From: Deltaproteobacteria bacterium
Lineage (GTDB): Bacteria > Desulfobacterota > Desulfovibrionia > Desulfovibrionales > Desulfomicrobiaceae
Length of the DNA: 33,345 nt
Assembly: GCA_009929795.1 (NCBI GenBank)
Contig: RZZR01000013.1
Coordinates: 1-33,345, forward strand
Direction: 5' to 3'
Shown here: positions 11,525 through 13,084 of the stretch, piece after piece
Position numbering within the stretch: position 1 is the stretch's first letter
Layout: every line of letters begins with the position of its first letter
Position numbers and translations under genes: made by a program
The notes under the pieces: generated by a model
Databases searched by the model: none
Told to the model about the DNA's origin: nothing
What the model saw: only the letters and a program-made list of their open reading frames with translations

Positions 11525-12865
11525 TCAAATCTTGGGACACCCCTTGAGTGCCTCCTGGATGCATTCATCCGGCAGCTCAAAATTGGTCAGCCTGCCGGAC
11601 AAAAAGGCATCGTAGGAGGACAGGTCCAAAAGTCCGTGGCCCGAGTAGAGGAACACGATATTCGATCCGGGCTCGGCCTCTTTGGCCACCTCCATGGCCG
11701 CCTTAATGGCGTGGGAGGTCTCAGGGGCCGGCAGAAACCCTTCGGTCTGCAGGAAGAGCTTGGCCGCCTCAAAGCATTCTGTCTGGAAATAGGCCCGGGC
11801 CTGGATCAGGCCTTCGGCCATCAAATTACAGACAATGGGCGCGTCTCCATGGTAGCGTAGCCCTCCTGCGTGGATCGGGGCCGGCATGAAATCGTGCCCC
11901 AGGGTGTGCATCTTGAGCAGCGGGGTCAGCTTGGCCACGTCGCCGTAATCGTAGCGGTAGCTACCCTTGGTCAGGGTCGGACAGGCCTTTGGCTCGGCGG
12001 CCACGAAGGTGATTTTTTCCCCGGCCAGCTTCCGGGGCATGAACGGGGCCACGAACCCTCCGAAATTGCTCCCCCCCCCGACACAGCCGACCAGATAATC
12101 GGGATGCTCACCGATCTTCTTCATCTGCATCTGGGTTTCCAGGCCAGTGATGGTCTGGTGGAGTATGACATGGTTGAGGACACTGCCCAGGGCGTATTTG
12201 GTGTCATCATGGGTGGCCGCATCCTCCACGGCCTCGGAGATGGCCAGACCGAGGCTTCCCTTGCACTCGGGATCGCGCTCCAGCATGGCCCGGCCGGTTC
12301 TAGTCTCCGGTGACGGGGATGGAAAAATCTGCCCACCGTAGGCGTTGATCAGGATCTTCCGGTAGGGCTTCATGTCGTAGCTGACCCGCACCATGTACAC
12401 CGTGCACTGCAACCCGAACATGGCCGTAGCGAACGACAGAGCCGTTCCCCATTGCCCGGCCCCAGTCTCCGTAGCCAGCCGCTTCACTCCGTCCAACTTG
12501 TTGTAATAGGCTTGGGGGACGGCCGTGTTCGGCTTGTGGGACCCGGCCGGAGACACGGATTCGTTCTTGTAGAAGATCCGGCACTTGGTCCCGATGGCCT
12601 TTTCGAGATTTCTGGCCCGAACCAAAGGCGTGGGCCGATAGAGACGATAGACGTCCAGGACCGGCTGAGGAATGTCGATGTGACGCTCCGGGCTCATCTC
12701 CTGCTCGATAACCCCCGAGGGAAAGATGACCGACAATTGCTCCGGGGTCACCGGCTTCTTGGTCTCCGGGTCCAGGGGTGGGGCCATGGGCGTGGGCAGG
12801 TCAGGCAGAATGTTGTACCAGGCTCTGGGCATTTCCGACTGGGAAAGATCTATGCGATCGTCCAC
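11525..12865 (-). CDS. trpB2: TrpB2-type tryptophan synthase beta-like protein
   Basis: A 446-residue PLP enzyme of the TrpB2 branch, which condenses indole (and possibly other nucleophiles) with serine to make tryptophan, often without a TrpA partner. The PLP Lys111 lies in [19 protein letters not shown] (136-143) and the phosphate loop GCVGGGSN (260-267) follow. The long N-terminal region ([20 protein letters not shown]) and [10 protein letters not shown] are TrpB2 signatures. Start: GTG 12865, with AAGGAGGT six bases upstream; the frame continues to 13033, but that part is the regulatory leader. No trpA or other trp gene is nearby. A Trp-rich leader peptide and terminator precede it, which supports a real tryptophan role. 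Confidence 0.94.
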
Positions 12866-12881
12866 GACAATACCTCCTTGC

Positions 12882-12918
12882 AAAAAAGTTGGGGGCTCAG
12901 GCTTTCGGCCCGGCCCCC
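12882..12918 (-). terminator. Attenuator terminator in the trpB2 leader
   Basis: The minus-strand stem GGGGGC (12918-12913) pairs perfectly with GCCCCC (12896-12891), with an inner GGGC/GCCT stem and a CGAAA loop. AAC and six T residues follow (12887-12882). The trpB2 ribosome site AAGGAGGT starts two bases after the T run. A terminator placed inside the 5' leader, just before the gene it precedes, is the hallmark of transcription attenuation. Confidence 0.85.
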
Positions 12919-12948
12919 ATCGCCCCGGAATGAAATCCCGGAAACAAA

Positions 12949-13020
12949 CGGACCGCGACCAAAGCCGCGGCCCGTTGTTCAGTTCCTTACGCCGGCGGCT
13001 TCGATCTATGCCACCAGCAC
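12949..13020 (-). promoter_or_regulatory. Alternative hairpins of the trpB2 attenuator
   Basis: Segment 1 (13020-13010, covering the last Trp codons) can pair with segment 2 (12999-12989) over 11 positions with several G-U pairs and a 10-base loop. Segment 2 can instead pair through AAGCCGC (13001-12995) with GCGGCTT (12968-12962). Segment 3 (12974-12966, CGGGCCGCG) pairs with segment 4 (12957-12949, CGCGGTCCG). Segment 4 could otherwise pair with CGGGCCG inside the terminator (12912-12906). The pairings are seen by eye; no folding energies were computed. Confidence 0.65.
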
Positions 13021-13049
13021 CACCAATATGCATTCCGTACCGTGTTCAT
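12987..13049 (-). CDS. trpB2 leader peptide, 20 residues, Trp-Trp-Cys-Trp-Trp
   Basis: From ATG 13049 the frame reads M-N-T-V-R-N-A-Y, then W-W-C-W-W (codons TGG TGG TGC TGG TGG, bases 13025-13011), then H-R-S-K-P-P-A and TAA at 12989-12987. Four Trp codons in five is far beyond chance and matches the logic of trp operon leader peptides, where ribosome stalling at Trp codons senses charged tRNA-Trp. The only nearby purine run is AAAAGG about 13 bases upstream of the ATG, so initiation may be weak or leaderless. The frame differs from that of trpB2. Confidence 0.85.
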
Positions 13050-13055
13050 GAAAAA

Positions 13056-13084
13056 AAAATCGACCTTTTCTTCGAACTTGTCAA
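13056..13084 (-). promoter_or_regulatory. Possible promoter of the trpB2 leader
   Basis: TTGACA (13084-13079) is a perfect -35. At 17 bases the candidate -10 is only GATTTT (13061-13056), a poor match. If used, transcription would start at or next to the leader-peptide ATG, giving a leaderless message. The placement is tentative. Confidence 0.4.

Follow-up and report, generated by a model that had tools for sequence, protein, structure and literature searches.

Upstream of a trpB2 gene without trp neighbours, a deltaproteobacterium of the order Desulfovibrionales carries a short open reading frame (ORF) rich in tryptophan codons. Is this ORF the leader of a trp attenuator and, if so, what would it tell us about the enzyme? 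The function of orphan TrpB2 is disputed, the proposals being indole salvage for tryptophan, serine deamination or an unidentified function. We analysed the locus in the window (the whole stretch of 33,345 nucleotides) and compared it with trpB2 loci from related and distant genomes.

The lone trpB2 gene and its leader ORF

The gene and the upstream elements discussed in this section are the following:
11525..12865, minus strand: trpB2, GTG start, 446 aa, NF009057 / TIGR01415
12873..12879, minus strand: trpB2 ribosome-binding site AAGGAGG, read in the sequence
13049-12987, minus strand: leader ORF of 20 codons, kept in 13 relatives
13025-13011, minus strand: TGG TGG TGC TGG TGG (Trp-Trp-Cys-Trp-Trp), within the leader ORF
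13056..13084, minus strand: candidate promoter TTGACA-17-GATTTT, read in the sequence just 5' of the leader ATG, with a weak -10 box

The encoded protein exceeds the curated cut-offs of NF009057 and TIGR01415 (697.9 bits vs 366 and 646.3 vs 518.85, respectively), and its nearest solved chains (4qys, 6hte and 6hul, 435-438 bits) are named tryptophan synthase beta chain 1 or 2. Directly upstream, on the same strand, lies the gene of a VWA-domain protein (14488-13151), and directly downstream that of a sensor kinase. The other named genes of the window encode a Ser/Thr kinase, CheB/CheR, PhoH, a class II tRNA synthetase with an editing domain, GcpE, IspD/F, RNase P RNA and rRNA. TrpB2 had been described as stand-alone, and indeed the window ORFs that were scanned included no other recognisable trp gene. 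The genome has its trpB1 adjacent to trpA on contig C1 (L164:9707-11733, minus), directly behind a GntR/UTRA regulator. With trpB2 outside a trp operon and trpB1 adjoining trpA, the gene falls into the orphan subtype, TrpB2_o. The rRNA at the window end leaves the nearest family within the order unsettled, so some chance of a misbinned contig persists.

The leader ORF reads ATG AAC ACG GTA CGG AAT GCA TAT TGG TGG TGC TGG TGG CAT AGA TCG AAG CCG CCG GCG TAA. Its 20 codons, four of five being Trp at 13025-13011, are present just as originally predicted, and its stop codon lies 121 bases (rather than the 122 first given) from the GTG start of trpB2 at 12865. In relatives, a GGAG-type site occupies the position of the ribosome-binding site. 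As a control for chance, we shuffled the 350 bases 5' of trpB2 preserving dinucleotides, and none of 5,000 shuffles yielded a short ORF with at least four Trp in five codons. Across the order, 16 of 96 trpB2 upstream regions contain a short ORF with three or more Trp in six codons (0.46 expected); thirteen, plus that of L194, correspond to the conserved leader, while those of L020, L038 and L085 look like chance. The candidate promoter is absent from the promoter-scan output for the window. Relatives have TTGAC(A/T), followed by a TA-containing box, at the equivalent position, immediately 5' of the leader, which argues that the hairpins described below are part of the leader transcript.

Leader RNA structure and proposed mechanism

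Between the Trp codons and trpB2, the RNA contains these elements:
13010..13018, minus strand: segment 1, GCTGGTGGC, over the second Trp pair; partner 12999-12991
12991..13005, minus strand: segment 2, ATCGAAGCCGCCGGC, pairing with segment 1 or segment 3
12958..12971, minus strand: segment 3, GCCGCGGCTTTGGT, pairing with segment 2 (antiterminator) or segment 4
12942..12979, minus strand: terminator 1 (3:4 hairpin), CGGGCCGCGGC-TTTG-GTCGCGGTCCG, then TTTGTTT
12925..12941, minus strand: small hairpin separating the two terminators, from folding
12882..12918, minus strand: terminator-like hairpin 2, GGGGGCCGGGC...GCCTGAGCCCCC, AAC, TTTTTT, after the attenuator and before the trpB2 ribosome-binding site

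The leader fold is 5 s.d. more stable than dinucleotide shuffles. The terminator that had been claimed for the leader is the hairpin at 12979-12942; its U-run is imperfect in this genome (TTTGTTT), and a simple terminator scan of the window reported no terminator. Helix 1:2 pairs GCTGGTGGC with GCCGCCGGC and includes Trp codons. The 2:3 antiterminator comprises 14 bp here, with an energy of -23.6 kcal/mol that 0.6% of shuffles equal. When folded only as far as segment 3, the RNA adopts 2:3, and with the whole T-run included it adopts 3:4; likewise, all seven leaders folded form 2:3 if truncated after segment 3, and 3:4 prevails once segment 4 is complete.

To assess whether the pairings are retained, we aligned 14 leaders (this genome and 13 relatives) from the Trp run through the T-run. 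Helices 1:2 and 3:4 were jointly 95.6% paired and 2:3 was 93.6% paired, with 94.4% of cells paired for 1:2 by itself, and sliding the partners by 1-3 bases lowered the pairing to 25-62%. In 13 of the 14 sequences only 0.1-6.1% of shuffles produced a 2:3 duplex as good, the weakest case being L003 (8.4%). In genus g33, segment 2 has become GTGAGCC and segment 3 GGGCTCA or GGTTCAC, and the best pairing partner of this segment 2 is the g33 segment 3. The check proposed with the original prediction also looked for compensatory changes in the hairpins: pairing is kept in the relatives and the g33 changes agree, but two-sided covariation is modest. Helix variation is mainly G-C to G-U, and strictly two-sided changes amount to two pairs in 3:4, one in 2:3 and none in 1:2, and several of the shuffle controls reached at least the same level. 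With so few two-sided changes, the case rests on the simultaneous retention of three mutually exclusive pairings, not on covariation alone.

The well-known trpL attenuator of E. coli combines tandem Trp codons, alternating 1:2, 2:3 and 3:4 helices and a U-run terminator. The leader studied here shares with it the tandem Trp codons, a stop that would let the terminating ribosome cover segment 2, the alternating 1:2/2:3/3:4 helices, the U-run terminator and a Trp enzyme downstream. It differs in its number of Trp codons (four, against two in trpL), in an additional terminator-like hairpin, in having no match to the Rfam trp leader, and in its target, a single orphan trpB2, whereas trpL controls trpEDCBA. 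The Rfam trp operon leader had no match in the window at the gathering score, nor at E<=2 in eight loci, and the window gave no covariance-model match to the T-box (RF00230); Rfam families that did appear near the leader, such as HgcF and MIR1846, were discarded as chance matches.

Considering the Trp-codon run near the end of a short ORF, helix 1:2 over the Trp codons, the exclusive 2:3 helix and 3:4 with its U-run, we are highly confident that, as predicted, the stand-alone trpB2 has a Trp transcription attenuator of its own, of the classical ribosome-mediated type. The gene would very probably be switched on only under tryptophan shortage. When Trp-tRNA is plentiful, the leader ribosome would pass WWCWW and reach the stop codon, covering segment 2, so that terminator 1 would form and transcription would stop before trpB2. 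When Trp-tRNA is scarce, the ribosome would stall at the Trp codons and cover segment 1, allowing 2:3 to pair, blocking the terminator and letting trpB2 be transcribed. A leader left untranslated would form 1:2 and terminate. In this genome the leader's stop codon comes just after segment 2, and most relatives have it immediately ahead of that segment or at its start; from the ribosome footprint, the terminating ribosome would be expected to cover segment 2 in either case. The locus had been put forward as direct evidence of regulation by charged tRNA-Trp: its anatomy and conservation agree with such regulation, but the wording is too strong, as ribosome stalling and the response to tryptophan are features that we infer.

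One could also imagine a two-lock attenuator, in which segment 4, freed by 2:3, would pair with the 5' arm of terminator 2 (4:5) and one stalled ribosome would open both terminators in cascade. A second hairpin with a T-run follows terminator 1 in this genome and in three g33 relatives (L011, L035 and L165), and two consecutive terminators are also found after the Trp leaders of trpB2 in L098, L100 and L101. The 4:5 pairing is equalled by 0.1-0.7% of shuffles in g33 and by 8.9% in this genome, and the complementarity would come free if hairpin 2 were a copy of hairpin 1. We regard this second lock as a tentative and rather doubtful extension of the attenuator.

Conservation of the leader within the order

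TrpB2 of 55-79% identity is encoded in about 95 of 247 genomes of the order. The leader was found in eight of those, including this one, and in six more through genus-wide searches: seven from genus g8, three from g23 and three from g33, in addition to this genome. Hence, tandem TGG codons and hairpins, which the prediction proposed to look for in relatives, do recur, since the leader and its three helices are present in 13 relatives from three other genera. Their peptides read GYWWRWRQRN/D, GLWWRRQQHS, FWWCWRHSK/RT/TT, GWWRWWQSY, CWWRWWQMG, NWRSWWQRK, SWRGWWQRD, GWWRRWQSS, GWWRWWHRD and CWWRWWHRQ, at a similar position, with the stop codon about 119-165 bases 5' of trpB2 across carriers. A covariance model built from the 14 leaders and run on 257 genomes of the order gave eight matches at E<=1e-15 (2e-15 to 1e-26), every one of them upstream of trpB2, and the next match was about 1e8-fold weaker. 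The weak matches (38 bits and less) were a mixture of trpE leaders, phenylalanine-rich leaders and plain terminators, and were therefore left uncounted.

The leader is absent from six of 13 g8 genomes with trpB2 and from most other TrpB2-bearing genera of the order, which indicates that the regulation is dispensable; in L171, a leader-less g8 genome, scattered Trp codons still occupy the leader position. In the protein tree, all leader-bearing TrpB2s fall into one 48-row clade together with those of genus g22, and the TrpB2 of this genome sits at its base (support 85). A single origin of the leader plus later losses is thus sufficient. In g22, 21 of 21 genomes (L036-L049, L051, L053-L058) have a one-Trp leader, typically MNTPISYTYFCGRGWRNVKRPDS*, ending 158-192 bases 5' of trpB2 and followed by a terminator; its amino-acid sequence is kept and the changes are synonymous. 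The leader of L092, a sister to g22, is intermediate (HWRGWRHIR). Possibly, the multi-Trp leader gave rise to an arrest peptide in g22.

Lone trpB2 in other phyla, TrpB2 function and competing readings

A further sample comprised 72 trpB2 loci, mostly from other phyla. The available flanks contained none of trpA, C, D, E, F and G, so all 72 genes look stand-alone. Among the 71 upstream regions scored, eight presented a leader of three Trp in six codons (expected 0.29): NNWWWG in Zixibacteria (two), NWWWQLL in Syntrophorhabdaceae, AWWWQM and SWWWCS in Flavobacteriales, and FWWFWFRF (twice) and YWWCW in Oscillospiraceae or Clostridia. L154 has a ninth, weaker leader (SWWRLPLR), and a hairpin with a T-run separates leader and trpB2 in all nine loci. 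Another 39 lone trpB2 genes (Clostridia and Chloroflexi; L099-L162) are preceded by a T-box motif, 14 of them with a GAA-UGG-A specifier context. Two loci reached the Rfam T-box gathering score, with UGG as specifier in both alignments, and at a looser threshold 11 of 11 loci tested matched (E 3e-4 to 2e-18). With unrelated Trp leaders and T-boxes before the same gene, orphan trpB2 appears to have been placed under tRNA-Trp control repeatedly, and such control would thus be a recurrent property of these genes, achieved via unrelated devices.

A T-box on a trpB-like gene has been described in Dehalococcoides (PMC2494555), in two Chloroflexi strains, and it is the sole report of tRNA-Trp control of a trpB-like orphan in the literature that we searched, from which subscription journals and the main trp reviews were largely missing. 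There the tRNA-Trp sensor is a T-box, unlike the translated leader found here, and our sample extends T-boxes on lone trpB2 to many Clostridia. T-boxes and leader peptides are reported to interchange before the same gene, hisS among others (PMC2965389); that paper likewise places different tRNA-charging sensors before orthologous genes, without dealing with trpB or tryptophan. Nothing relevant was found on trp attenuation in Desulfovibrio, and tryptophan is absent from a paper on delta-proteobacterial regulons (PMC545781). As far as the literature searched goes, the mechanism is of a known kind, that of E. coli trpL, and what is new is the target, the conservation on an orphan trpB2 and the recurrence across phyla.

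That tRNA-Trp-sensing leaders or T-boxes precede lone trpB2 in several phyla suggests that the enzyme makes tryptophan from indole, and we infer, with moderate confidence, that its physiological role is indole salvage. TrpB2 would condense indole and serine to Trp, probably as an indole scavenger. The gene content of this genome (96% complete) bears on this role. With E. coli TrpE, TrpGD, TrpCF and TrpA as queries, trpC, D, E and F went undetected; the search returned trpA, one TrpE-like ORF and two weak amidotransferase-like matches. The TrpE-like ORF, the only one in the genome, reads as a PabB-PabC-type fusion and was rejected as TrpE. The IGPS (TrpC) model had no match in this genome, and matches in 16 of 22 family members and 14 of 14 control genomes; TrpC is also missing from some near-complete relatives (G048 and G039). 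TyrA, a neighbour of trpE in relatives, is likewise missing here, so one unassembled region could account for all the absences. The absence of trpC, D, E and F hence fits indole use, with a missing contig as the alternative cause; if the loss is real, TrpB2 would act on scavenged indole. In the other three leader-bearing genera the trpEGDCFBA operon was present wherever the region was read, and TrpB2 would there be an addition to the pathway.

One could argue that the leader couples trpB2 to the Trp supply while the job of TrpB2 differs from Trp synthesis. PMC1854888, where the function of TrpB2_o is called not yet identified, quotes a serine-deaminase proposal and otherwise leaves orphan TrpB2 function open, but it also reports poor activity of this kind for TrpB2_o enzymes. 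These proteins (chains 4qys, 6hte and 6hul) belong to the same family, with a stand-alone gene and trpB1 elsewhere in the genome; unlike here, that paper does not deal with how the orphan gene is regulated. A Bacteroides TrpB2 aided an E. coli trpA mutant cross-fed by wild type, which its authors read as indole uptake (PMC11535334), and control by Trp recurs across several phyla through unrelated devices. We consider a job other than Trp synthesis improbable. With a dedicated attenuator here and unrelated leaders and T-boxes elsewhere, cells seem to link TrpB2 to Trp-tRNA shortage; this offers a cheap test of its role, and the leaders let annotators spot trpB2 genes that are probably under Trp control.

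A TnaC-like arrest peptide, sensing free Trp or indole instead of uncharged tRNA-Trp, would be compatible with the g22 leaders, whose one-Trp end (RGWRNVKRP.S) is kept at the amino-acid level beyond what codon counting needs. In this genome and the 13 relatives, however, the Trp run stays in place amid variable neighbouring residues, the pattern of a codon-counting leader, and the helices agree with attenuation; an arrest peptide is quite improbable here. Still more remote is the possibility that the ORF is a chance TGG-rich open stretch followed by ordinary terminators of the upstream gene. The region is GC-rich, several unrelated upstream regions have chance two-Trp ORFs, and the same-strand VWA-domain gene needs a terminator; against this stand the shuffles, the recurrence of the ORF, with its position and its three helices, in 13 relatives, and the TTGACA-like box directly before the leader there. 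Finally, a trpB2 start at 13033, with the GGT repeats encoding a glycine-rich N-terminal extension (MHIGGAGG...), can practically be dismissed: this genome keeps the frame open as far as 13033, but in 11 of 12 relatives tested an in-frame stop interrupts it after the Trp run, 12 to 138 bases ahead of the trpB2 start, and homology begins at the GTG at 12865 with its AAGGAGG site.

Apart from trpB2, the order contains other leader-like sequences. Genus g28 (L238, L241, L246 and L248) has leader peptides in which WW follows a stretch of phenylalanines (e.g. MNTRKTYFFFFFFNFTSPVVWWCSLA); they precede a terminator, and perhaps sense Phe and Trp together. A tyrA-like gene (prephenate dehydrogenase domain) lies directly 5' of trpE at 35 loci, including L198:4308-4403 (+), L199, L200, L201:3061-3156 (+), L202, L205 and L252-L281, and in its last 20 or so residues each of the 35 genes encodes a WWWR tail (WW in one case); at most of these loci, trpE is preceded by a hairpin and T-run. 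WW is also present in L203, without an attenuator. The tail of this structural gene seems to serve the main trp operon as a Trp-sensing leader.
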